In this document: positions 17,634 through 63,459 of the stretch, in pieces
Layout of the letters: each line of letters begins with the position of its first letter
How positions within the stretch are numbered: the stretch's first letter is position 1
Assembly: GCA_024640305.1 (NCBI GenBank)
Contig: JAHEFG010000043.1
Location: forward strand, 124,001 to 188,000
DNA from: Gammaproteobacteria bacterium
GTDB lineage: Bacteria; Pseudomonadota; Gammaproteobacteria; Steroidobacterales; Woeseiaceae
DNA length: 64,000 nucleotides
Direction of reading: 5' to 3'
Program-made: the position numbers and the translations under genes
Notes under the pieces: generated by a model
Database searches by the model: none
What the model was told of the DNA's origin: nothing
What the model saw: only the letters and a program-made list of their open reading frames with translations

Positions 17634-19799
<2,166 letters not shown>

Positions 19800-51334: not shown

Positions 51335-52507
51335 TTAGTTCTGCTCTTTGCGCGCCGCCAGTTTTTTCGCAAGCCAATCTGCCATCTTGGGCATGACAAT
51401 CGAACGGTACTGTCCGAAGCAATGCTGATCGCCACCCATGATCCAGAGGTCGGTTTCCTGGCCGGAATCTGCCAACAGGCGCAGATCCGACATCGGCGCC
51501 AGATTATCCAGATCGCCATTCACGATTAGCGTCGGCTGCGTAACACTGTGGTCGGTCGTCAGCAGGCCCTGCTTGACCAGTGAGAAGCCCTGCATGTACT
51601 CATTTATTCCATCAGTGTCTTCGGGAGGGAAATGAATGGCAGCAGACAAGGCTTCCTGAATCTCCCAGGCGCGATCAGTATTTTTCCAGCCATCGTGAAC
51701 GGCCGCACAAGCGGCAATGACGGCAAACAACCGATCTTCTGTTATTGCATTACGCGCGGCGTAATAGCCAGAAAAGCTGAAGCCGACATGGGCAATGTAA
51801 CGCCCATCTATCAGGGGGTGGTCTTGCATGAAATCGACAACGCGGCTGTGCAGGACGTTTGAATCTGGCTTAGCCGCCCAGGCGGTATTTTCACCGGTAC
51901 CGAGCACGTCGAAGGTTAGTACGGCAAAGCCGCGCTCAACGTACGGCTTAATGTTGTTGTAGACGTCGCCTTTCCATGTGTCGATACCGCCGTTCCACAA
52001 TATCAGCGGCGGTTTCTCGGCGTCGGGCGGCATGTGCAGGTAGCCCTGTATTGTCTGACCATCGTAAGGAATATCGATGATCACCAAACGCGGATCGAAG
52101 TATTCGCCGGCTCGCTTGTAGTACTTGAGGTGTTGACTGTAAGCCTCGGCCTGGCCGGGAAGCGTCTTCGCCGGGAACCTGGCGATGCCGTAGAATTTGG
52201 ATGCGGTCAGAAATGCTTCCCGAGCCGCATCGGCGTCGTCCGCCGCGGCAAATACCTCACCACGATCGGCAAAATACTGTCCGATTTGTGACCACTCATA
52301 CACCCAGGATCCCGGATCTGTACCTTGCATGTGCTTGACACGTCTGTAGGTCGAACGGATGAGATCCGGATTCTTTGTTTGCGCGCTCCATAGTCGCAGC
52401 CGCCTTTCTTCGACAAACTCTTCTTCATTCGCGGTATCGGCAAGTGAGAGGTCTTGCGCCAAAAGACAGAGACCAAAAAGTCCAAAGAGCAGATGTTTTA
52501 AGTGCAT
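51335..52507 (-). CDS. Secreted FrsA-like alpha/beta hydrolase (paralogue)
   Basis: 390 aa from the ATG at 52507. The signal peptide is LKHLLFGLFGLCLLAQDLS. The architecture matches the protein at 20990: a helical N-domain with YGIARFPAKTLPGQAEAYSQ, then an alpha/beta hydrolase with LILWNGGIDTWKGD, a GFSFSG elbow (Ser244), IVNGDLDNLAP (acid) and a C-terminal His. Substrate is unknown, but periplasmic ester or C-C bond cleavage is likely. The upstream 234 bp gap is shared with the divergent redox cluster at 52743. Confidence 0.8.
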   Translation of the reverse strand: MHLKHLLFGLFGLCLLAQDLSLADTANEEEFVEERRLRLWSAQTKNPDLIRSTYRRVKHMQGTDPGSWVYEWSQIGQYFADRGEVFAAADDADAAREAFLTASKFYGIARFPAKTLPGQAEAYSQHLKYYKRAGEYFDPRLVIIDIPYDGQTIQGYLHMPPDAEKPPLILWNGGIDTWKGDVYNNIKPYVERGFAVLTFDVLGTGENTAWAAKPDSNVLHSRVVDFMQDHPLIDGRYIAHVGFSFSGYYAARNAITEDRLFAVIAACAAVHDGWKNTDRAWEIQEALSAAIHFPPEDTDGINEYMQGFSLVKQGLLTTDHSVTQPTLIVNGDLDNLAPMSDLRLLADSGQETDLWIMGGDQHCFGQYRSIVMPKMADWLAKKLAARKEQN

Positions 52508-52742
52508 AGTGAGGTTCCCGCAGGCTGATGGATCGCCTGAATATACTAAGAAAGGCGTCAATGCACACGTTTGCAGCTTTTTCGGGGCGCGGATATACTC
52601 TGGCGACACCTAAGTTTTTGATACCAGCGGTTCTATCTGCGTGCGCAACGCGCAGACAAGCTAGTTGTGCCCTGCCGAGGCGCTCGGTAAGCCCGGCTTC
52701 ATATTCACCGTCCACCTATTGAGCTCCAGGGAGCGACTGACC
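52508..52742. other. Divergent promoter region, hydrolase / redox cluster
   Basis: 235 bp between the divergent starts at 52507 and 52743. AGGGAG just ahead of 52743 is the ribosome binding site of the propeller gene. No clear palindrome, riboswitch or small gene was found. Confidence 0.4.
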
Positions 52743-54131
52743 ATGAATTTAATATCTTCCCAACCCAAATCCGCGGCGTTTGTCGCCCTGATTTTATCGA
52801 CCTGCCTGGTTTTCGGTGCAGCGCATGCGGCAGGACCGAAAAAGGCGACCGCGAAGCAAAAGGCGGCGTGGGAAAATGAATGGACAAGAAAGGTCGGCGT
52901 GGTGCTGGAGTACGATCTGGATTCGAGTGGACCTGATGCATGGGACTCAAAAGAGCACCCATTGGTTTTCATTACAACAGAAGGCCCGGGTTACGGTGGG
53001 TTGCTTAGCGGCGTTACGCTTCCGGGTCTTGCGATCATCGATGCGGACACGCGCGAGGTCGTTGCGAGCCAGAGTTTCGATGTCTTGTCGTGGGGCTGGA
53101 AAAACGTCTTTGAACCACACGGTCTTGGCGTATCGCCCGACGGCAAGTGGATCTATTTGCCAACCGGCGAGGGGTCATTCACGACAACAACGGGTGGGCA
53201 CGCTGGTCGCTTTCTCGTGATTAATGCCAGGACCCTGAAGGTGGATAAAGTCATCCAGTTGGCAGGACAGGCGCATCATGCCAAGTCCTACACGAGCCCC
53301 GAGGGTGAACAGCGCGTCATGTTGTATGGCTGGTCGCAGCCGTTATTCGTGCTTGATCCGGACGATGACAATCGTGCCGTGGGCAGCATCTCGCATCAGG
53401 AACAGGGCAGCGAAGGGTATCTCTATTTCGCCTCGTCTGGCGGCGACAAGATCATTGGTACGGGTCGCTATCGCGATTTCGACATGCGCAAACACCTCAC
53501 CGACAACCCAATATGGATAATCGATCCGCAGAGTTGGCACATCAAGAAGTTCATCAGCGTCCCGGACAGTGCGCCGGTCTGGGTCAACTTCACAAGCGAC
53601 GATAAATACGCCTACATAACCGGTGCGCGCAACAGCATCGTCATGAAGCTGGACCTGGAAGAGGAAGAGGTCGTTACCGAACAACGTGCCGGAGTCGACG
53701 GTCCATATGGCAATCACTTCGGCTGGGACGACCGATATATCTACACCATCGGCAAGGGAGAAGAGTCACATAACCGGGGCAAGGTGCTGGGCATGGTAGA
53801 CACCGCGACAATGGAAGTTCCCGGATCGCGAGCCATGGATCAATTTTATACGGGCTGTGTGCGCGGTGATCATGGCACTCTCCACCCGGATCCCGAGGCC
53901 AACGAGTTGTGGATCAGCTGTAATGCGAGTTTCGAGGTCGTCATTTTTGACCTGGATCTCAGAGAGGTCTCGGCGAGAATCCCGCTGCCAAATGGTGGCA
54001 GTACGCATTCGGGCGCTTTCGTCTTCTATCCCGATGGTTGGAACGCGCCCGGCAAAACCCAGTCTGATATGAACGGCCTGCACGGTGAAGCATTAGAGAT
54101 GAAGAGAAAAATCGTCTCTGGCGAGTTTTAG
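52743..54131 (+). CDS. Periplasmic beta-propeller protein, first gene of a redox cluster
   Basis: 462 aa from the ATG at 52743; signal peptide ending AAHAAGP. The rest is a seven-bladed-type propeller in the YVTN/nitrous-oxide-reductase-like style: EPHGLGVSPDGKWIYLPTGE, QAHHAKSY, WIIDPQSWHIKKFISVPDSA, GNHFGWDDRYIYTIGKGE and RGDHGTLHPDPEANELWISC. Many histidines fall at comparable blade positions, as would suit a metal or heme centre, though no NosZ-specific CuZ motif is recognised. Downstream genes encode a cytochrome c/cupredoxin fusion, a CcdA-like protein, another propeller and SCO. It is probably the catalytic or substrate-binding part of that system; the reaction is unknown. Confidence 0.7.
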   Translation: MNLISSQPKSAAFVALILSTCLVFGAAHAAGPKKATAKQKAAWENEWTRKVGVVLEYDLDSSGPDAWDSKEHPLVFITTEGPGYGGLLSGVTLPGLAIIDADTREVVASQSFDVLSWGWKNVFEPHGLGVSPDGKWIYLPTGEGSFTTTTGGHAGRFLVINARTLKVDKVIQLAGQAHHAKSYTSPEGEQRVMLYGWSQPLFVLDPDDDNRAVGSISHQEQGSEGYLYFASSGGDKIIGTGRYRDFDMRKHLTDNPIWIIDPQSWHIKKFISVPDSAPVWVNFTSDDKYAYITGARNSIVMKLDLEEEEVVTEQRAGVDGPYGNHFGWDDRYIYTIGKGEESHNRGKVLGMVDTATMEVPGSRAMDQFYTGCVRGDHGTLHPDPEANELWISCNASFEVVIFDLDLREVSARIPLPNGGSTHSGAFVFYPDGWNAPGKTQSDMNGLHGEALEMKRKIVSGEF

Positions 54132-54174
54132 TCTTACTGCGCAGTATTGGCCAATTAGCAAATCAGGAGATTCT

Positions 54175-54834
54175 ATGAAGCTTGGCACAGCAACAACGCG
54201 AATTGCGTTGGCTCACCTATTTGTCGCAGCACTCCTGTTGCCGTTTCCAGTGCATGCCGATGATGACAGTCAGCTTGCCGAGGGAGCCCGGGTTTTCAGC
54301 ACGGTTGCCGGAGTAGGCTGCAAAACGTGTCACGGAGAGTACGCGGAAGGTGATGTTGGTGTAGGGCCTTATATTCGCGGTGCCACCGAGGGGGCGATAC
54401 GTGCCGCAATCGATGCTACCGGTGAAATGATCGTCATCAAGAGTGCGATCACAGAAGACGAGATTAAAGCAGTATCAGCCTACGTTGGCAGCCTTGGCAC
54501 TATGCAGGCCGTACGCACGCTGGCAAAGCGCGGTCGCTTCCTGCCCGCAGAGGTCAGTATTCGACCGGGTACCGCTGTGCAACTGATCATCCAGAATTCA
54601 AGCATTCAGCCACACACGTTCAAGAGTGACAATCTGGGTATTGGCGAATTTGTTGTTGCAGGTCGCAGCAGTGGTAGCGTCGAGTGGCGGGCACCGGAAG
54701 CCGAGGCGGAGTTCTCGCTGTATTGCACAGACTGCAAACTCAAGGATCAGTTTTTCACGGTGCGCGTAGCGGCGAGCGCGAAGGAGTTTCGCCCTGTTGT
54801 GTCAGTTAGCAGTGCTACAGATGATGCGATGTAA
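54175..54834 (+). CDS. Cytochrome c fused to a cupredoxin-like domain
   Basis: 219 aa, signal peptide ending VHADDD. Residues 34-110 are a short cytochrome c domain with CKTCH at 49-53 and Met85 as possible axial ligand. Residues ~120-200 form a cupredoxin-like sandwich: VSIRPGTAVQLIIQNSSI, QPHTF with His147, and FSLYCTDCKLKDQFF with Cys184 and Cys187. A type-1 copper site would need Cys-His-Met and CuA would need Cys-x3-Cys-x3-His; neither is complete. The CxxC may instead be a redox dithiol. RBS CAGGAG precedes the ATG. The gene sits 43 bp after the propeller and 9 bp before a CcdA-like gene, so electrons may pass among the three. Confidence 0.75.
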   Translation: MKLGTATTRIALAHLFVAALLLPFPVHADDDSQLAEGARVFSTVAGVGCKTCHGEYAEGDVGVGPYIRGATEGAIRAAIDATGEMIVIKSAITEDEIKAVSAYVGSLGTMQAVRTLAKRGRFLPAEVSIRPGTAVQLIIQNSSIQPHTFKSDNLGIGEFVVAGRSSGSVEWRAPEAEAEFSLYCTDCKLKDQFFTVRVAASAKEFRPVVSVSSATDDAM

Positions 54835-54843
54835 CAAGTTCGG

Positions 54844-56271
54844 ATGAATACCAAAACCACGTCGCTCGATAGTGGGTTGCGTCCAGACGACCCCCCGCAA
54901 CGTGATGCATGGTTCTCCAGGCACCAGGCGGCAGTAACAGCGCTGTTAGTCACGCTTACCTTATTGATAGCAGCCAGCTGGCTGGTATTTCCCTACTACA
55001 TAAAAGACCACGACCTGATTGCGAGCGTGGGTGGCAGCGTTAAGCAGGAAAAGCTGCGCAACGCAATTAGCATAGGCCAGTTCCTTAATCGGACAACGTT
55101 CGGCTCGGGGGAAGCGCAGGTCGACGTTCTTTACGCAACGCCGAAATATTTTGCTGTTACGGATCGTGCGCAGGCTGTCACACAGTTTCGGCCTGACCTT
55201 TACCTGGTGTTCCTGGTTACGGAAACCACACACATCGAAGACCTGCCCCGGCAGTTGCCGGATGCGGTGCTAAAAGTTGATGGTCGTGAGTATGCACCCT
55301 TCGATGTGGAAGGGCCGCTGGAGGTGTATCACCACAGGGTCGTTACGCTGCGTTTTCCGGCATATAGCGAAGACGGCACGCCAGTTCTGACCGACGATTC
55401 GACAGCTTTGGAGCTGCAGCTATTTAACACTTGGGATCCGGACAATTCCCCCAGGATTGTTAGCTGGGATCTGCCGCTCGCTTATCCGCCGGCCCTGGAA
55501 AACCCGAGTCCCTGGACTCCTGTCATGGTGCTGGGCTTGTCAGCGGGATTGTTGTCGTTCGTGCTAACACCGTGTCTGCTGCAGCTGCTCATTGTTTATG
55601 TGGTTACGCTCACCGGGTTTTCCGTTGACCAGTTGCGTAGTGGTACTGCGGCCGTTCCGGTCGATGTCAGACGCAAGCTACTATTGGTTGCCGTTTCATT
55701 TGTTGCAGGTCTGACCGCATTGTTCACTTTGACCGGCGCGGGCATCGGGTACGCTGGCAAGCAAATGCAAATGTTTTTTGCGGTCTGGAGTCCAACGCTC
55801 AGTGTTATATCCGGGATTATCGTGATCCTGATGGGCTTGTGGGTTGGTGTGCGTTCACGGGCGCCACTTGTTTGCCGTCTCGTCCCACAAAAAGTGCTGG
55901 ATGCTCAGTCCCAGGGCGTAGCCTCATACTTTGGGTCGGCGTTGATCGCAGTTGGTTTTTCGCTGGGTTGTATCACGTGCTTCGGCGGCGCGATTATAGC
56001 TACGCTGCTGATCTACGTGGGCTCCCTGGGTAGCGCACTGGTTGGCGCCACCGTCATGTTCGGTTTTTCGATGGGTGTTGTCATACCGTTTCTTTTGGCG
56101 GCATTCTTTCTGTCCCGTACCATGCCACTGCTGTCGAAGATTCATCTGTATGCGCCGACGATAGGGTTTGTCGGCATGCTGGTGATCGTTGCATTCGGAC
56201 TCGTGCTCGTCACCGATAATTTCCACGCCCTGAGCGACCTCATCTATCCCTGGTTGCAACTGGACGGCTAA
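54844..56271 (+). CDS. CcdA/DsbD-like membrane protein with an N-terminal periplasmic domain
   Basis: 475 aa. One anchor helix at 31-50, a cysteine-free periplasmic domain (51-225) and a CcdA/DsbD-type membrane domain of about six or more helices. FVLTPCLLQLLI (Cys244) and FSLGCITCFGGA (Cys376, Cys379) occupy places like the paired cysteines of CcdA. The family moves electrons from cytosolic thioredoxin to periplasmic thiols. It lacks the C-terminal thioredoxin domain of DsbD. The likely target is the CxxC of the neighbouring cytochrome/cupredoxin protein or the SCO protein downstream. The N-terminal domain resembles nothing I recognise. Confidence 0.72.
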   Translation: MNTKTTSLDSGLRPDDPPQRDAWFSRHQAAVTALLVTLTLLIAASWLVFPYYIKDHDLIASVGGSVKQEKLRNAISIGQFLNRTTFGSGEAQVDVLYATPKYFAVTDRAQAVTQFRPDLYLVFLVTETTHIEDLPRQLPDAVLKVDGREYAPFDVEGPLEVYHHRVVTLRFPAYSEDGTPVLTDDSTALELQLFNTWDPDNSPRIVSWDLPLAYPPALENPSPWTPVMVLGLSAGLLSFVLTPCLLQLLIVYVVTLTGFSVDQLRSGTAAVPVDVRRKLLLVAVSFVAGLTALFTLTGAGIGYAGKQMQMFFAVWSPTLSVISGIIVILMGLWVGVRSRAPLVCRLVPQKVLDAQSQGVASYFGSALIAVGFSLGCITCFGGAIIATLLIYVGSLGSALVGATVMFGFSMGVVIPFLLAAFFLSRTMPLLSKIHLYAPTIGFVGMLVIVAFGLVLVTDNFHALSDLIYPWLQLDG

Positions 56272-56281
56272 TGTCGAGCTT

Positions 56282-57397
56282 ATGAAAACGATCAGCATAT
56301 TGTCCACAGGCTTGTTGTTGAGTCTCCTGATTTCGTCAGCGGCGTTCGCACGCTTCGATGACGGGGCGCGTTATGCGTTTATCGCCAGCGCGAGCAACAA
56401 GTCGATAATCATCATCGATCTGCAGGAGAGGTCTCTGGTTCACACGATCGAACTCAAGCAGGTTCCGACGTCAGTAATGGTTTCGGCGCGGCTCAAGGCG
56501 CTGGTTATAGCGCATGCAGCAGACGATAGTCTGACCCTGGTTGACCTTAGCTCTGCAGATCTGACACAGATCGCCTACCCACTGGATTTAACGCCGTCGA
56601 CAATCGAAATGAGCCCTGTTGGGGAAACCGTCGCTGTCTTTGACAAGGACGCGGGGAAACTCGAGGTGCATGCATTTCGTCGCCGCTCAGTTCTGCTGGC
56701 TGTAGAAGACGTACAAACAGAATCAGGGTTCACCTTTAGCTCCGACGGCGCGATGATATTTTGGGTAGACGACGGCAATGGGACCTTTAACGCGGTCGAC
56801 CTCTGGTCGAAAAGGAAGAGCATTGCGCTGGCGCAGCCCTGGTCCGGTTTGTCGGCAATTTCGCGCAGCATCGACGGCAGAGTCGCCTTCATCAGTGAAG
56901 CATCAGCTGCCGTCGTGCATATGATTGACCTGTCGACGTTTGCGCCATTGCTCAAGGTGAACGTCGGCAAAAGTCCCGGTCGACCATGGGGCACCACCGA
57001 CGGACGTTACATGCTGGTTCCGAATAACGGGGACCGCACGCTGACGGCAATATCAACTGCGTCTGGGGCACCGGCATACACGGTTGCGACGGTCGATCAT
57101 CCTTTGTTTATTAATCCCGGCTGGCTGGATTCAACGGCGGCTGCGGTCGGTGAGTTCGGTGAAGTGGCGTTTATCGATATCGATAATGGGAGCGTGACAC
57201 ATCATTACGAACTCGAAGGCGCGGCGCTTGATGGCATTGTGACTTCGGATTCCCGCTTGTTGGCAATTCCGGTACCTGACAAGGGAACCGTGGAATTCTT
57301 CGATATGCGAAGTCGGGCCAGGCTGTCGTCGATTTCCGGTTTGCCGCCTGATATCGGGCCGCCAGTACTGGCGATCTCAAATAATCTTTGCCACTAA
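56282..57397 (+). CDS. Second periplasmic beta-propeller protein
   Basis: 371 aa, signal peptide ending AAFARFDD. Repeated YVTN-like blades occur: YAFIASASNKSIIIIDLQER, KALVIAHAADDSLTLVDLSS and YMLVPNNGDRTLTAISTASG. Unlike the first propeller, it is poor in histidine; it may be a structural or substrate-sensing partner. The gene starts 10 bp after the CcdA-like gene and its stop codon overlaps the SCO start by one base (TAATG), so it is coupled into the same operon. No function is recognised. Confidence 0.75.
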   Translation: MKTISILSTGLLLSLLISSAAFARFDDGARYAFIASASNKSIIIIDLQERSLVHTIELKQVPTSVMVSARLKALVIAHAADDSLTLVDLSSADLTQIAYPLDLTPSTIEMSPVGETVAVFDKDAGKLEVHAFRRRSVLLAVEDVQTESGFTFSSDGAMIFWVDDGNGTFNAVDLWSKRKSIALAQPWSGLSAISRSIDGRVAFISEASAAVVHMIDLSTFAPLLKVNVGKSPGRPWGTTDGRYMLVPNNGDRTLTAISTASGAPAYTVATVDHPLFINPGWLDSTAAAVGEFGEVAFIDIDNGSVTHHYELEGAALDGIVTSDSRLLAIPVPDKGTVEFFDMRSRARLSSISGLPPDIGPPVLAISNNLCH

Positions 57398-57981
57398 TGA
57401 AACGCAGAGGCAACAGTCTGTTCTTACGGGCAGGGCTCGTGCATGCTCAATTCGTCCTGTGCGCGCTTCTTCTGTGTTCGCCGGGTCGCGCCGAGGACAT
57501 CGTTGACGGTACGTTTGAGCTTACAGATCACGAGGGTCAACCAACCAACGAGCGCAGTTTCGACGGCAAGCTGCGACTGGTATTTTTCGGTTATACGAGT
57601 TGCCCCGATGTCTGTCCGACAACGCTGTACGAGGTCGCCCGCATGATGCGGCAGCTCGGTGACGAGGCTCGCCATGTGCAGCCAATATTCATCAGCGTGG
57701 ATCCCGTAACAGATACGCCTGCAAGACTCGCGAACTACGTTGCAGCGTTTCACCCCGCAATGGTCGGGCTAACCGGAAGCAAGCAACAACTGGACGCAGC
57801 TGCCGCGTCATTCAACGTCACCTACGGGGTCGAGCCGGCGAGTGGCGACAATTCAGTCCCGGGTACCGTGTTTCACAGCTCGTATCTGTTCCTGATGGAT
57901 CGGCAGGGGGCTTTCCTCGACGTTTTCGGTTATGGCGCAAAAGCCGAGGAAATTGCAGCCAGGTTGCGCGAGCATTTTTGA
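57397..57981 (+). CDS. SCO1/SenC-family copper chaperone or thiol-disulfide protein
   Basis: 194 aa, coupled by TAATG to the propeller gene. The thioredoxin fold carries FFGYTSCPDVCP, with Cys69 and Cys73, and His160 in the GTVFHSSYLF loop; these three are the copper ligands of SCO proteins. The N-terminal hydrophobic stretch AGLVHAQFVLCALLLC anchors or exports it. SCO proteins insert copper into CuA sites of oxidases or, as with PrrC/SenC, manage thiols. Its presence argues that the cluster includes a copper protein, presumably the first propeller or the cupredoxin-like domain. Confidence 0.88.
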   Translation: MKRRGNSLFLRAGLVHAQFVLCALLLCSPGRAEDIVDGTFELTDHEGQPTNERSFDGKLRLVFFGYTSCPDVCPTTLYEVARMMRQLGDEARHVQPIFISVDPVTDTPARLANYVAAFHPAMVGLTGSKQQLDAAAASFNVTYGVEPASGDNSVPGTVFHSSYLFLMDRQGAFLDVFGYGAKAEEIAARLREHF

Positions 57982-58011: not shown

Positions 58012-58260
58012 CTAATGTCGATGGGGCCTGCCTGTTGCGCAGCCACACGCGGTGGCCGCAGGGCTTTTCTTATCGACTACCGTACTGCGCCTGAGCACTC
58101 CCAGCTTGAGACCACTGCCGCCGGTGATGATCATGCGGACGGGTTCGCCCGTGGCGGGGTCTTCGGTCAGGGGTGACTCACTCATGCTTTGAAATACTTC
58201 GAAGCGTCGCGGTTTGTCGCCCTGTTTGCTGGGGATAGTTTCGTAGGTGTAGGTCGGCAT
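58012..58260 (-). CDS. FmdB-family protein lacking its zinc-ribbon cysteines
   Basis: 82 aa. The backbone MPTYTYETIPS..FEVFQSMSESPLTEDP..RMIITGGSG follows FmdB proteins, whose standard form is MPTYEYxCxxCG..FEVFQSMSDPPLTxCPxCGG. All four zinc-ligand cysteines are replaced here (YETIP, TEDPATG). The tail has CGCATGRPHRH, which could still bind metal by a different site. Members are annotated as regulatory but rarely studied. The gene converges on the SCO gene. The cysteine-less form probably folds without zinc. Confidence 0.72.
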   Translation of the reverse strand: MPTYTYETIPSKQGDKPRRFEVFQSMSESPLTEDPATGEPVRMIITGGSGLKLGVLRRSTVVDKKSPAATACGCATGRPHRH

Positions 58261-58454: not shown

Positions 58455-59759
58455 ATGTCAAAAATTGAGTCTACGGAACCTGTTGTCATCCGCCCGGAAG
58501 ACATCCAGACAAACTGGAACTGGGATCGGCCAATCGCAGCCCCCGGTCGGACAGACGTCGACTTCGAGGAGCGCGTTGATTTTCGGCGCTTGCACAAGTA
58601 TCGAATTGCGCGCGCCGAGCAGGCGCTAAAGAACTCGGACCTTGGGGCACTGTTGTGTTTCGATAACAACAACATTCGTTACCTGACGAGCAGCGTGATC
58701 GGCGAGTGGAGCCGGGACAAGATATGTCGCTACGCGCTCTTCACAGGCAACTCGAACCCATATCTCTGGGATTTTGGTTCGGCTGCATCGCATCATCGCC
58801 TGTATGCGCCATGGTTGAAAAAGGATCACTGTAAGGCCGGCATGCTCGGCTTGCGCGGCTCCGTTCCGGTTGAGGCGGACCTCTTCAAGAATGCGGCAAA
58901 GGAAATTCATGACCTGCTGAAGGTCGAAGGCGTTGCCGACATGCCGATCGGTGTCGATATCGTTGAACCGCCCATGCTGTTTGCACTACAGCAAGAAGGT
59001 CTGGATATTCGCGATGGACAGCAAGTGTTTCTCGATGCGCGACAAATCAAAAGCATGGATGAAATTATTCTGCTAAATATGTCGGCAGCGCTTGTTGACG
59101 GCGCCTACCAGGAGATTGCTGAGAACCTGAAACCCGGCATGCGTGAAAATGAAATGGTTGCCCTGGCAAACAAGTTTCTTTACGACAATGGATCGGATGA
59201 TGTCGAGGCGATTAATGCGGTATCCGGTGAGCGTTGTTCGCCGCATCCGCATAACTTCACAGATCGCATGTATCGACCGGGCGACCAGGCGTTTTTTGAC
59301 ATCATCCAGTCGTACATGGGTTATCGCACTTGCTACTACCGAACCCTGAACGTCGGTCTCTCGACGCCGGCGCAGGTAGATGCGTACAAGACGGCGCGCG
59401 AGTGGATCGACTCTGCAATTAACCTGGTTCGACCGGGCCTGACGACAGACCGAATCGCCGCTTTGTGGCCGAAGGCGGAAGAGTTTGGTTTTGCCAATGA
59501 AATGGAGGCGTTTGGCCTGCAGTTCGGGCACGGTCTCGGTCTTGCGTTACACGAAAGGCCGATCATCAGCCGTCTGGTCTCTTTCGAAAATCCATTTGAG
59601 TTGCAGGAAGGCATGGTATTCGCGCTCGAAACCTATTGCCCCGCGGCCGATGGTAACGGCGCTGCCAGGATTGAAGAAGAGGTGGTCGTCACCAATGACG
59701 GCTGCAAGGTCATTACCTTGTTCCCGGCCCAGGAATTATTTGTAGCTAACCAGTACTAA
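58455..59759 (+). CDS. M24 (creatinase/aminopeptidase P-like) family protein with an altered metal site
   Basis: 434 aa. The creatinase N-domain spans ~40-190 and the pita-bread domain ~195-430. Metal-ligand positions align as Asp282 (FFDIIQ), His359 (FGHGLGLALHERP), Glu392 (ALETYC) and Glu407 (ARIEEEV). The second aspartate of the usual pattern GYxSDxTRT is Cys293 (GYRTCYYRT). Relatives include aminopeptidase P, creatinase and the DMSP lyase DddP, which shares the fold but has its own Asp set. The altered ligand suggests an unusual metal or a non-peptidase reaction. The next genes encode an aldehyde dehydrogenase, an alpha-keto acid E1 and a VOC protein, suggesting a catabolic route. Confidence 0.78.
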   Translation: MSKIESTEPVVIRPEDIQTNWNWDRPIAAPGRTDVDFEERVDFRRLHKYRIARAEQALKNSDLGALLCFDNNNIRYLTSSVIGEWSRDKICRYALFTGNSNPYLWDFGSAASHHRLYAPWLKKDHCKAGMLGLRGSVPVEADLFKNAAKEIHDLLKVEGVADMPIGVDIVEPPMLFALQQEGLDIRDGQQVFLDARQIKSMDEIILLNMSAALVDGAYQEIAENLKPGMRENEMVALANKFLYDNGSDDVEAINAVSGERCSPHPHNFTDRMYRPGDQAFFDIIQSYMGYRTCYYRTLNVGLSTPAQVDAYKTAREWIDSAINLVRPGLTTDRIAALWPKAEEFGFANEMEAFGLQFGHGLGLALHERPIISRLVSFENPFELQEGMVFALETYCPAADGNGAARIEEEVVVTNDGCKVITLFPAQELFVANQY

Positions 59760-59763
59760 GACT

Positions 59764-61215
59764 ATGTCCGACAAACTAATAAGCAGCATTCCCACAAACC
59801 TCTATATCGGCGGGCAGTGGCTTCCATCGTCCGATGGCAACAGTATCTCTGTTGTCGATCCGGCCACCGAGCGGGTCATCGCAGAAGTTGCTAGTGGTTC
59901 TGCCGATGACGCAACGAGTGCCGTGGATGCGGCGTCTGCAGCCGCGGCTGAATGGGCGGCAACGCCACCGCGAGTTCGCTCCGAGGTATTGCGCAAGGCA
60001 TTCGAGCTAATGACTTCGCGAAGAGAGGAGTTCGCCACAATCATATCCAGGGAAGAGGGCAAGACCCTGGCGGAAGGGTTGGGTGAAGTGGCTTACGCTG
60101 CGGAATTCTTTCGCTGGTATGCAGAAGAGGCACCGCGGACGATGGGGCACTTCGGTCGTTCGCCGGCTGGTGCCAATAACATTCTGGTTGACTACAGCCC
60201 TGTTGGTGTATCACTTCTGATTACGCCCTGGAATTTTCCCGCGGCAATGGGAACGAGAAAAATTGCTCCTGCACTAGCCGCAGGTTGCACCGTCATCTTG
60301 AAGCCCGCTTCAGAAACTCCATTGACTGCTCTGGCACTCGCCGGGTTGCTCGAAGACGCGGGCGTGCCTGCCGGTGTGGTCAACGTATTCCCCTCCAGTC
60401 GCTCCGGTGAAATATCGAACCGCATCCTGAGCGATAGCCGCGTAAGCAAAGTGTCATTTACAGGCTCGACTGAAGTCGGTCGTATTCTGCTTGCGAAGGC
60501 GAGCGAGCGTATTGTCAATTGTTCGATGGAACTCGGCGGCAACGCACCATTCATCGTGCTCGACGACGCGGATATCGACGAAGCTGTCGCTGGTGCAATG
60601 ATCGCTAAAATGCGTAACGCCGGTGAGTCGTGCATTGGCGCGAACCGCTTCTATGTGCACAGCGCTGTCGCCGCTGAGTTCGCAGACAAATTTGCTGCAG
60701 CTATGGCAGAACTAAAGGTAGGGCCCGGCCTGGATGAGGGTGTTGACGTTGGGCCGCTCGTCAATGCAAGTACAAGAGACAAGGTTGAGCACCTCGTCAA
60801 CGATGCCGTCGCAAGTGGTGCACGCGTCCTCACTGGCGGAAAACGCCCTGCTGGCCAAGGATTCTTCTACGAGCCAACGGTCGTAACAAACATTGATCCG
60901 CAGGCAGAGATCCTCAACACAGAGATTTTTGGGCCCGTCGCACCGATCGTCGAATTTGACGAACTGAGTGACGTAATCACTCGTGCGAATGAAACGATCT
61001 TTGGATTGGCGGCATATGTTTTCAGCGGCAACGTTGGTCGTGCACTGTCGGTCGCACAGCAGATAGACGCCGGAATCATCGGTGTAAATCGTGGCTTCGT
61101 ATCAGATCCTGCAGCACCGTTCGGCGGCATGAAGCAAAGTGGCCTGGGGCGCGAAGGGTCGCAGGATGGAATGCACGAGTTCCTCGAAAAGAAATACATA
61201 GCCGTAGATTGGTGA
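59764..61215 (+). CDS. NAD(P)-dependent succinate-semialdehyde-type aldehyde dehydrogenase
   Basis: 483 aa, starting 4 bp after the M24 gene. VSLLITPWNFPAAMGTRKIA is the coenzyme entry motif, FTGSTEVGRIL the NAD-binding loop, MELGGNAPFIV holds the general base Glu256, and NAGESCIGANRF the catalytic Cys290. The pattern ESCIGANRF and closing GMKQSGLGREGS are typical of GabD/SSADH. It oxidises a semialdehyde to the acid; substrate in this operon is unknown and may be a product of the M24-like protein. Length matches the family. Confidence 0.9.
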   Translation: MSDKLISSIPTNLYIGGQWLPSSDGNSISVVDPATERVIAEVASGSADDATSAVDAASAAAAEWAATPPRVRSEVLRKAFELMTSRREEFATIISREEGKTLAEGLGEVAYAAEFFRWYAEEAPRTMGHFGRSPAGANNILVDYSPVGVSLLITPWNFPAAMGTRKIAPALAAGCTVILKPASETPLTALALAGLLEDAGVPAGVVNVFPSSRSGEISNRILSDSRVSKVSFTGSTEVGRILLAKASERIVNCSMELGGNAPFIVLDDADIDEAVAGAMIAKMRNAGESCIGANRFYVHSAVAAEFADKFAAAMAELKVGPGLDEGVDVGPLVNASTRDKVEHLVNDAVASGARVLTGGKRPAGQGFFYEPTVVTNIDPQAEILNTEIFGPVAPIVEFDELSDVITRANETIFGLAAYVFSGNVGRALSVAQQIDAGIIGVNRGFVSDPAAPFGGMKQSGLGREGSQDGMHEFLEKKYIAVDW

Positions 61216-61263: not shown

Positions 61264-63459
61264 ATGTCTGAAACGAAGACCCTGCAGCTTGATGCGCCGT
61301 GGGTGGAAATTACTGCGACACCATCCGATTGGGATGATGCCGGATCGCAGACATTGCTGAAGATGCTAAATCATATGCATCTGATCAGGGCATTCGAAGA
61401 AGAGATTCTGAATCTCGACAGAGAAGGCCTGGCGCATGGTCCCATGCATGTCAGCGTAGGCCAGGAAGGCGCAGTGGTCGCGGCGATGTCTCTGCTCAAT
61501 ACCGGGGACGGTATTAACGGGCCGCACCGCGGTCACCATTTGTTTCTTTCGAAAGCCTTGAACTACGTGGACGCAGAGGGCTATGACCCGCGGAGCGAAG
61601 CTACACCTGCGGTCATCGATGACCTGATGTATCGGACAATGGCCGAAATATTGGGCCTGACGCCGGGCTTCTGCAAAGGCCGCGGCGGTTCTATGCATTT
61701 GCGATGGGAAGACGCCGGTGTCTTCGGCACGAACGCAATTGTCGGCGGCGGCGTGCCGCTGGCCAACGGTGCGGCCTGGTCGAAACGGCGACAAGACAAA
61801 GGCGAGGTTGTCTTCACGTTTTTTGGCGACGGCGCTTGTCACATTGGCAACGTCCTCGAGTCGATGAACCTGGCTGCCCTGTATAACCTGCCGATTTGTT
61901 TTTTCATTGAGAACAACCAGTATGCTGTATCCACGACGCTGGCCGAAGAGGCTCGCGAGACACGAATGTCTTCGCGCGGGCTCGGTTTTGGAATCCCGTC
62001 GTTCCGCGTAGATGGCATGAACCCGATGTCGGTGCGCGTAGCGACAAACGCCGTATTGCAGCTACTTCGCGAGGGCAAAGGGCCCGCCGTTCTGGAAGCC
62101 AATTCATACCGTTATTACCACCATGGTGGTGGCCTTCCGGGCAGCGCATTTGGTTATCGGAGCAAAGAAGAGGAAGCCGCTGCCATGGAACGTGATCCAC
62201 TGGCGCAGATGGAAAGGGAAATGTTGTCTCGCGGCTGGCTGGATGAGGATGGGCTCAACACGATTCAGCAAGCGGCCAAGGTCGCTGCTGAGACTGCCTC
62301 TGCGAAGTTGACCGAACCAGCGGGAAGCAAGCGTGCAATAGTGAGTTCATTGTGGCCCGACGTCAGTTTCCGGGACCAGGGATTGCGGGGCGACCTGTCG
62401 GAATTTGACGGCATAGATTTCGTCGAGCAGGAGTCTTACCAGGGTGAGCTCCAGGAAGTTAAGTTGATAGAGTCGATAGCCTCCGTCATGGTGCGCCGCA
62501 TGGAAACAGACGAGCGCTACTTTGTGATGGGTGAAGATATTCACAAGCTGCGCGGCGGTACCAATGGAGCTACCAAAGGTATTCCGGAGCGTTGGCCCGA
62601 TCGCTGTATTCCTACGCCTATTGCGGAGCACGGTTTTGTTGGGCTATGCGGTGGCGTTGCTATGGACGGCCACTACCGGCCGGTCGTCGAGTTGATGTAT
62701 CCCGATTTTTCACTGGTCGCTGCAGACCAGTTGTTCAACCAGATTGCCAAGGCACGCCATATGTTTGGTGGCGATATAAACGTGCCGTTAGTGTTGCGGA
62801 CGAAGGTCGCTCTTGGCTCCGGTTATGGCTCGCAGCATTCGATGGATCCTGCCGGTATGTTTGCGATGTGGCCCGGCTGGCGAATTGTTGCCGCATCAAC
62901 GCCGTTCGACTATGTCGGCTTGATGAACAGCGCACTACTTTGCGAGGATCCGGTAATGATGCTTGAGCATGTAGACCTGTATCAAAGCAAAGGTCTCGGA
63001 GCTACTGAAGACTTCGACTATTACATTCCGCTTGGCAAGGCCAGGGTTGCTCGCAGAGGCGGCGCATTTACCGTCCTGACCTACCTCACGATGGTGTCCA
63101 AGGCCATCGAGGTTGCTGATGAAATGGGCATCGACGCGGAAGTTATTGACCTGCGTTCGCTGGATCGTGGCGGCCTTGACTGGGAGACGATCGGTAACAG
63201 CGTTCGCAAGACGCACAACGTCGTAGTGCTCGAGCAGGGTCCTTTGACAACCTCCTATGGGGCGATGGTTACTGATGAGTTGCAGCGGCGGTTCTTCGAT
63301 TACCTGGATCAACCAGTTAAACGCATCCACGGCGGAGAAGCGTCGCCAAGCGTATCCAGGGTTCTGGAACGCTCCGCGTTTGTCGGTGAAGAAGAAATAC
63401 GCAGCGGGTTCGCCAACATGATCGCGGATATGGGCCGGTCATTCGCGGCGGTCAGCTAA
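61264..63459 (+). CDS. Alpha-keto acid dehydrogenase E1, fused alpha and beta subunits
   Basis: 731 aa. Residues 1-360 are E1-alpha: GPMHVSVGQEGAVVAAMSLL, then GDGACHIGN (188-196) through IENNQ (about residue 217) as the thiamine pyrophosphate motif. Residues ~395-731 are E1-beta: VMGEDIHKLRGGTNGATKGI, HGFVGLCGGVAMDGHYRPVV and VIDLRSLDRGGLDWETI. It decarboxylates a 2-oxo acid and would pass the acyl group to a lipoyl E2, which is not in the window and may be supplied elsewhere. The fusion replaces two usual genes. The gene is 48 bp after the aldehyde dehydrogenase in the same operon. Confidence 0.9.
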   Translation: MSETKTLQLDAPWVEITATPSDWDDAGSQTLLKMLNHMHLIRAFEEEILNLDREGLAHGPMHVSVGQEGAVVAAMSLLNTGDGINGPHRGHHLFLSKALNYVDAEGYDPRSEATPAVIDDLMYRTMAEILGLTPGFCKGRGGSMHLRWEDAGVFGTNAIVGGGVPLANGAAWSKRRQDKGEVVFTFFGDGACHIGNVLESMNLAALYNLPICFFIENNQYAVSTTLAEEARETRMSSRGLGFGIPSFRVDGMNPMSVRVATNAVLQLLREGKGPAVLEANSYRYYHHGGGLPGSAFGYRSKEEEAAAMERDPLAQMEREMLSRGWLDEDGLNTIQQAAKVAAETASAKLTEPAGSKRAIVSSLWPDVSFRDQGLRGDLSEFDGIDFVEQESYQGELQEVKLIESIASVMVRRMETDERYFVMGEDIHKLRGGTNGATKGIPERWPDRCIPTPIAEHGFVGLCGGVAMDGHYRPVVELMYPDFSLVAADQLFNQIAKARHMFGGDINVPLVLRTKVALGSGYGSQHSMDPAGMFAMWPGWRIVAASTPFDYVGLMNSALLCEDPVMMLEHVDLYQSKGLGATEDFDYYIPLGKARVARRGGAFTVLTYLTMVSKAIEVADEMGIDAEVIDLRSLDRGGLDWETIGNSVRKTHNVVVLEQGPLTTSYGAMVTDELQRRFFDYLDQPVKRIHGGEASPSVSRVLERSAFVGEEEIRSGFANMIADMGRSFAAVS

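Follow-up and report, generated by a model that had tools for sequence, protein, structure and literature searches.

Organisation of the cluster

The stretch of DNA studied here (hereafter the window) comprises 64,000 nucleotides of contig JAHEFG010000043.1 from a gammaproteobacterium of the family Woeseiaceae (assembly GCA_024640305.1). It carries five genes, P1–P5, that lie on one strand and encode two beta-propellers (P1 and P4), a haem c protein with a cupredoxin-fold domain (P2), a membrane protein of the DsbD/CcdA type (P3) and an SCO protein (P5) (Table 1). An earlier note on this DNA, drawing on the architecture of nitrous oxide reductase, had suggested that they may form a split or distantly related metalloenzyme with its own electron donor, thiol supply and copper insertion. 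The compact layout that it described is confirmed by the coordinates of the open reading frames (ORFs), with gaps of 43, 9 and 10 bp between P1, P2, P3 and P4 and a single base shared by the stop codon of P4 and the start codon of P5 (TAATG). The data presented below give good support to the idea of an enzyme with metal at its hub whose partner and assembly genes are dedicated to it. On balance, we also consider it probable that P1 is a periplasmic dehydrogenase with copper at its hub, which passes electrons to haem c and has a partner and assembly proteins of its own.

P1 matched no Pfam or NCBIfam family above the cut-off. It had been called histidine-rich, which is true only in a moderate sense (15 histidines in 462 residues); more telling are seven histidines that are invariant among 14 aligned orthologues. 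P2 scored above the Pfam cut-off for Cytochrom_C (24.9 vs 21.3 bits) and slightly below it for Cupredoxin_1 (26.2 vs 27 bits). P3 was recognized by DsbD_TM (30.9 vs 27.1 bits), and its N-terminal part has no family. For P4, Pfam and NCBIfam returned a generic propeller, and P5 is a clear SCO1-SenC protein (157.4 vs 22.8 bits, Pfam). Judged by eye, P1, P2, P4 and P5 begin with sequences that resemble Sec leaders and lack twin arginine.

Table 1. Features of the five-gene cluster and the adjoining catabolic genes (window coordinates)
Feature	Position	Strand	Description
P1 (gene 1)	52743..54131	+	ORF; 462-amino-acid propeller, leader-like N-terminus, putative copper-hub catalytic subunit
P2 (gene 2)	54175..54834	+	cytochrome c (CxxCH, conserved Met85) and cupredoxin-fold domain, invariant YCxxCK
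P3 (gene 3)	54844..56271	+	N-terminal three-His domain joined to DsbD/CcdA-type membrane domain
P4 (gene 4)	56282..57397	+	second propeller, companion of P3, C-terminal SNN-x-Cys-His
P5 (gene 5)	57397..57981	+	SCO1/SenC copper chaperone (Cys69, Cys73, His160)
P1 His126 codon	53118..53120	+	blade 1, just before inner strand; 49/49 in family
P1 His178-His179 codons	53274..53279	+	blade 2, inner strand; 49/49
P1 His325 codon	53715..53717	+	blade 5; invariant in P1 type only
P1 His377 codon	53871..53873	+	blade 6; 49/49
P1 His422 codon	54006..54008	+	blade 7; 49/49
M24 metallopeptidase-fold protein	58455..59759	+	adjoining catabolic cluster; best NCBIfam family DddP, far under cut-off
Aldehyde dehydrogenase	59764..61215	+	adjoining catabolic cluster
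2-oxoacid dehydrogenase E1 alpha-beta	61264..63459	+	adjoining catabolic cluster; single 731-amino-acid ORF

Conserved linkage and co-occurrence

A scan of genome contigs for close relatives of P1 yielded 13 loci (L019–L031), all in metagenome-assembled genomes: five from Woeseiaceae or Woeseia, five from unclassified Gammaproteobacteria or Proteobacteria and one each from Porticoccaceae, Rhodobacteraceae and Arenicellaceae. The five-gene order is kept in 7 of the 13 (L021, L025, L026, L027, L029, L030 and L019, the last with gene 5 cut), and four others end early at contig ends (L020, L023, L028, L031). Such recurrence of the gene order exceeds chance. The most distant P1-type sequence, in the Arenicellaceae genome (L031), matches with 59% identity over residues 111–461; without the first 110 residues, it is possibly a broken or re-started gene.

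The cluster is patchily distributed, since only 5 of 36 other genomes of the same genus carry P1 (at 78–90% identity). The propeller family is rare elsewhere: the P1-type profile recognized 1 of 369 genomes of the class (E 1e-20), which is the window's own, and the family was found in 2 of 398 genomes of the phylum, again including the window's own (E 1e-30). A scan of viral contigs with P2 gave no lead, and a tblastn search of plasmids returned one weak propeller match for each of two queries.

Profiles of P3 and of the propeller were each compared with 246 genomes of the same order (E 1e-15), the genomes being drawn in the same manner for both. P3 was present in 21 genomes and the propeller in 24; all 21 genomes with P3 hold a propeller, and P3 was found in none of the 222 genomes that lack one. 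P4 adjoins P3 at 20 of the 23 loci with P3, and the remaining three run off their contigs. SCO adjoins P3–P4 in 17 of the 23, is cut in four others and is missing despite room in L057 and L059. Together with the gene order, this co-occurrence bears out the conserved synteny that was to be expected if the genes belong together. Because P3 was found only with the propeller and P4 adjoins P3, both look like maturation factors for the propeller. Among the 14 genomes with at least two propeller matches (some of them fragments; scoring covered the five best candidates of each genome), P3 was matched once in nine, twice in two and not at all in three. One P3 for several propellers is more in keeping with assembly shared among them than with a role tied to one substrate.

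Invariant histidines at the propeller hub

For a count across the whole family, 98 propeller matches were reduced to 55 distinct and then to 49 non-redundant sequences, of which 14 are of the P1 type (assigned by an EPHG motif) and 35 are c-propellers, which carry an N-terminal haem c domain. Five histidines (126, 178, 179, 377 and 422) are invariant in all 49, as are Lys338, Glu340, Asp376, Trp280 and Tyr226. No further histidine column in the propeller part is conserved at 90% or more. His126 is present in every P1-type row that covers it (14/14), and His343 and His381, like His325, are invariant in the P1 type only. As an internal control we used P4, in which the sole invariant histidine among nine sequences is the C-terminal one.

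An AlphaFold model of P1, built with the 14-sequence alignment (predicted local distance difference test (pLDDT) 79.1, predicted template modelling score (pTM) 0.85), has seven blades by our own strand count. His126, His178-179, His325, His377 and His422 lie in the innermost strand of blades 1, 2, 5, 6 and 7, or at most two residues before it; the same count places Tyr226 at the equivalent position of blade 3 and Trp280 at that of blade 4. Since the histidines stand at the starts of innermost strands in the model, they are predicted to sit at the propeller hub. The expectation of a histidine cluster at the hub is thus borne out by the modelled strand positions and the 49-sequence count.

The c-propellers have a CxxCH motif in their N-terminal domain, lack a cupredoxin and are 25–30% identical to P1, the two sub-types sharing about 22–26% identity; Pfam cytochrome families score this domain at or under the cut-off. 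One genome (G055) encodes seven of them. In a genome of another family, a c-propeller stands in a row with homologues of SCO, P3 and P4 (L042), which are 29%, 39% and 20% identical to the window proteins, respectively. In another class of the same phylum, P3, P4 and a propeller form one same-strand row (L099). In L108 a divergent c-propeller and a P4-like gene are arranged head to head, and the 20-kb stretch contains no P3.

Redox partner and candidate assembly proteins

The haem c motif CxxCH and Met85 of P2 are invariant in all 11 aligned rows. In the cupredoxin part the invariant element is Tyr-Cys-x2-Cys-Lys; the conserved histidine or methionine of a CuA or type 1 copper site is absent, and His147 occurs in only some rows. 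Since the His and Met ligands are missing, this domain is not a CuA domain; it may serve for docking alone or as a thiolate site. P1 and P2 are fused in one open frame in 4 of the 12 loci that show both (L024, L026, L027, L028). These fusions and the N-terminal CxxCH domain of the c-propellers indicate that the propeller and haem c are physically coupled. A dedicated redox partner is consistent with our data; where the earlier note had an electron donor, P2 may instead be an acceptor.

In P3, four cysteines of the membrane domain (244, 344, 376 and 379) and three histidines of the N-terminal domain (130, 163 and 164) are invariant in 9 of 9 rows. Likewise, all nine P4 sequences, the most distant only 20% identical, end in SNN-x-Cys-His. 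This terminus is a possible metal relay, and P4 weakly resembles the zinc chaperone AztD (17 of 400 bits). The SCO protein keeps its Cys-x3-Cys pair and His160 in 8 of 8 rows. In L029 and L030 a PCuAC protein comes after SCO, and in L026 and L027 the two are fused, which makes 4 of the 6 loci with a complete SCO gene. The assignment relies on Pfam in L027 and L029 (PF04314, 88.4 and 90.4 vs 29.4 bits) and on tblastn only in L026 and L030. The natural SCO-PCuAC fusions span L026:4640-5683 (by alignment) and L027:12801-13757 (by Pfam).

SCO, joined by PCuAC in these four loci, points to copper as the hub metal. Judging by the sequences, the P1 hub most likely binds copper, and probably more than one ion. 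The proposed thiol supply and copper insertion are consistent with P3 and its invariant cysteines and with SCO and, in relatives, PCuAC.

Catabolic neighbourhood

Downstream of the cluster lie genes of a catabolic type (Table 1) and the start of a gene for a VOC protein. Catabolic genes adjoin P1–P5 or P1–P2 in 7 of the 13 loci (L021, L024, L025, L026, L027, L029, L030), L029 being counted only through a LacI gene and genes like those of the xanthine dehydrogenase type and of metallo-beta-lactamases. The set, which occurs in parts, includes genes for M24, aldehyde dehydrogenase, E1, E2, VOC and TRAP proteins, a LacI regulator, a glutathione S-transferase and a TauE-like exporter; the name of the transferase was given by eye, as was that of the exporter outside L044, in which the TauE family was confirmed. 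In the other six loci, mostly short, no neighbour query was found except an upstream hydrolase and a phosphoesterase. In 4 of 6 Woeseiaceae c-propeller loci (L041, L044, L104, L107), a run of E1 alpha, E1 beta and E2 leads straight into the propeller gene; this run is not seen in L108, nor in L118, which is cut. With E1/E2 genes beside both P1 and c-propeller loci, both sub-types attach to 2-oxoacid catabolism in Woeseiaceae. The nearby cluster with its 2-oxoacid dehydrogenase and TRAP transporter argues for an organic substrate that is oxidised by the propeller.

M24 relatives adjoin both propeller sub-types. The M24 protein reaches 114 of 600 bits against DddP, a dimethylsulfoniopropionate (DMSP) lyase, and perhaps represents a DddP-related branch of other function. 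At such a score we rejected DddP/DMSP metabolism as the substrate pathway and kept it as a weak clue. Other propeller copies in G055 stand beside FAD_binding_4 flavoproteins with cytochrome c, an RPE65-type oxygenase and a pyrroloquinoline quinone (PQQ) dehydrogenase. No substrate, aromatic compounds included, is claimed, as many of 30 regions share none of the 19 neighbour queries.

Comparison with known propellers and alternative explanations

Several observations weigh against a copper dehydrogenase. Local confidence of the model is only moderate around two of the histidines (block means 61 for His325 and 68 for His377), and a model of the fused P1–P2 is poor (pLDDT 67.5, pTM 0.60). The common hub has five histidines (six in P1), fewer than the seven of CuZ, the copper site of nitrous oxide reductase (NosZ). 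Two of the 13 loci (L022, L024) have P1–P2 without adjoining P3–P5 even where sequence continues; in the genome of L022 (G012), P3, P4 and SCO lie on a separate contig (L063). Three genomes (G723, G748, G794) have a propeller without a P3 match, and the co-occurring genomes are related, hence not independent events. In the window no PCuAC adjoins SCO. SCO, PCuAC and DsbD/CcdA-type proteins also serve the assembly of cytochrome oxidase and cytochrome c, so the copper could be for something else. Finally, the generic propeller 1l0q_A (Z 31.1, root mean square deviation (rmsd) 2.5, 298 residues aligned) outscores the copper enzymes among the fold matches of P1, namely NosZ (5i5j_A; Z 26.7, rmsd 3.1, 309 aligned) and thiocyanate dehydrogenase (TcDH; 8yu5_A; Z 25.3, rmsd 3.0, 326 aligned). 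With generic propellers scoring highest, the fold alone says little. Profile scores are partly generic as well, since hhalign matches P1 to P4 as propellers at 91% probability. P1 resembles NosZ and TcDH in plan, and we claim membership in neither.

A kinship with nitrous oxide reductase in particular was not supported. CuZ is described in PMC11573801 as built from one histidine of every blade but IV and two consecutive histidines of blade II. A divergent reductase with a CuZ-like hub, in which P2 as donor replaces the CuA domain and N2O is reduced, would share with this site the seven blades, the HH pair in one blade and single histidines in others; like NosZ of clades I and II, the system combines a propeller and a cupredoxin. 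NosZ is also among the fold matches listed, and the cupredoxin of the fused form in L026 matches the C-terminal domain of NosZ at 24.6 of 625 bits (TIGR04246), P2 itself at 12.5. Unlike CuZ, however, the P1 site draws six hub histidines from five blades, with Trp280 at the blade 4 position, and we dropped a seven-histidine hub. P2 contains haem c and lacks the CuA motif Cys-x3-Cys-x3-His-x2-Met with its upstream histidine, the family having Cys-x2-Cys-Lys. Clade III NosZ, of the lactonase type (NF052460), is alike by eye in that its first repeat shows H and its second HH (L033, L034). It differs in its full CuA motif and has no specific profile similarity to P1, which scores 17.1 of 700 bits; hhalign gave 28% probability over 73 columns for the 49-sequence profile and 34% for c-propellers alone, no better than the control propeller P4 (39%). 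The window genome (78% complete) has no NosZ above the TIGR04246 cut-off and no clade III match at E 1e-50. Given these scores, the missing CuA ligands, the catabolic context and up to seven propeller paralogues per genome, we rejected membership in NosZ, clade III included, and consider N2O reduction extremely unlikely. It is only slightly easier to picture a haem d1-like tetrapyrrole at the hub, with the histidines as axial ligands, as in NirS and NirN, and we hold this to be very unlikely. The haem c-plus-propeller plan of the c-propellers is indeed that of NirN and NirS, NirN (6rtd_A) ranks fourth in a Foldseek search, and the window genome has one NirS-type gene above the cut-off. Cytochrom_D1 scores are weak, with P1 under the cut-off (18.3 vs 25.5 bits) and one member of the wider family (L012) barely over it (26.1 bits, 97 residues). 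NirS and NirN propellers have eight blades, whereas we count seven in the P1 model; the linked chaperones are copper ones, and an HH pair with histidines from three to four other blades better suits a metal cluster.

TcDH (EC 1.8.2.7) is described in PMC9456337 as a three-copper, seven-bladed propeller that passes electrons to cytochrome c; the copper lies in a central tunnel and copper-handling genes are nearby (PMC6504805 and PMC9456337). Its active site, as listed in PMC6504805, comprises Lys103, His135, His136, Gln156, His206, Glu288, Asp314, His381, His437, His482, His528, Asp529 and Arg544. P1 could be a member of this lineage that attacks a C–S bond, perhaps of an organosulfur compound. 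A profile of blades 1–3, a sub-region chosen after a weak full-length match to TcDH (E 0.0077) had been seen, matched the TcDH chain 8q9x_A with an E value of 2e-6 (0.0023 for the best single stretch) and aligned the HH pair with the position that carries Gln in 8yu5, a chain with the H447Q mutation; the control P4 had NosZ but no TcDH among the best 60 of its 83 matches. The DddP score of the M24 protein and the TauE exporter in L044 also hint at sulfur. In the same blades 1–3 table, however, the generic propeller 1l0q_A comes first (8e-8) and hydrazine synthase beta is level with TcDH (2e-6), and TcDH was not matched by the profiles of blades 5–7, of the P1 type (E 10) or of the c-propellers (E 1). 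Both the TauE and M24 families are broad, and relatives in another family adjoin genes of no obvious sulfur role. The shared seven-bladed fold is common, and the P1 hub has an HH pair and further histidines, six in all against seven in the listed site. TcDH is Tat-exported and linked to CopC/CopD or Cus (PMC6504805), whereas the P1 system has Sec-type leaders by eye, SCO (with PCuAC in relatives), P3, P4 and a fused or linked haem c. Overall, we judge a TcDH-lineage enzyme that attacks a C–S bond to be unlikely. Nor do we find much reason to think that the genes encode no enzyme at all and serve to deliver copper or haem to respiratory oxidases and to assemble them, with the propellers as metal carriers. 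SCO, PCuAC and DsbD/CcdA-type proteins are known respiratory assembly factors, and the conserved Cys-His end of P4 and its AztD score would suit a carrier. A general respiratory factor would hardly be missing from 222 of the 246 genomes of the order, and the propellers have a haem c domain of their own and occur in several copies per genome, sitting in catabolic operons. This explanation therefore appears unlikely.

Among other propeller enzymes, SBP56 (methanethiol oxidase) was not found among Pfam matches at E 1, and the fold matches do not tell against it. PQQ alcohol dehydrogenase with cytochrome cL offers a functional parallel, being a periplasmic propeller dehydrogenase with a cytochrome c partner and paralogues for different substrates. 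P1, unlike it, has no PQQ-enzyme family above the cut-off, and its conserved residues are histidines.

Proposed mechanism and significance

Returning to the copper dehydrogenase, we infer the identity and number of the metal ions, the direction of electron flow, the roles of P3 and P4 and the class of substrate. P1 would be the catalytic subunit of a periplasmic oxidoreductase whose hub residues His126, His178-179, His325, His377 and His422 hold copper. P2 would be its one-electron partner, with haem c and a cupredoxin-fold domain for possible docking. Oxidation of the substrate at the hub would reduce haem c, from which electrons would pass to the respiratory chain. P3 may move cytoplasmic reducing power across the membrane to keep the cysteine pairs of SCO, and perhaps those of P2, reduced. 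After export, SCO would put Cu(I) into the hub, aided by PCuAC in loci that have it, and P4 would be a partner reserved for P3, probably acting as a holdase or a metal relay. In Woeseiaceae the propeller enzyme would serve catabolic clusters; its product is perhaps a 2-oxo acid or a precursor of one, imported by a TRAP transporter and converted to acyl-CoA by the E1/E2 complex.

To our knowledge, hub copper clusters in propellers occur in very few enzymes, each with unusual chemistry; examples are N2O reduction and thiocyanate oxidation. The propeller family looks uncharacterised, and among the open-licence literature matches listed no paper deals with the five-gene cluster, which is not proof of its absence from print. 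It is conceivable, though we would stop short of calling it probable, that these proteins constitute a third hub-copper propeller family beside NosZ and TcDH, namely periplasmic dehydrogenases that multiplied within genomes of marine-sediment Woeseiaceae and some relatives, act on different substrates and share one dedicated system of metallation by P3, P4 and SCO. If so, new copper catalysts could be drawn from a further family with many paralogues and its own maturation genes, hub copper sites would be seen to arise along a path different from the one used for NosZ, and there would be a handle on what Woeseiaceae, common but poorly understood bacteria of marine sediments, oxidise. Further members could readily be sought with the P3–P4 pair as a genomic marker, and thanks to the hub histidines a single purified protein would suffice to test the idea.

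Other flanking genes

Directly downstream of the SCO gene, an 82-residue ORF on the minus strand (58012-58260) ends in CGCATGRPHRH; it looks like a small metal-binding protein of the FmdB type. L027 has a similar ORF, which ends near 19538. Upstream of P1, a divergent hydrolase-like gene (51335-52609, minus strand; an alpha/beta hydrolase by eye) is also found in L019, L020, L021 and L023.

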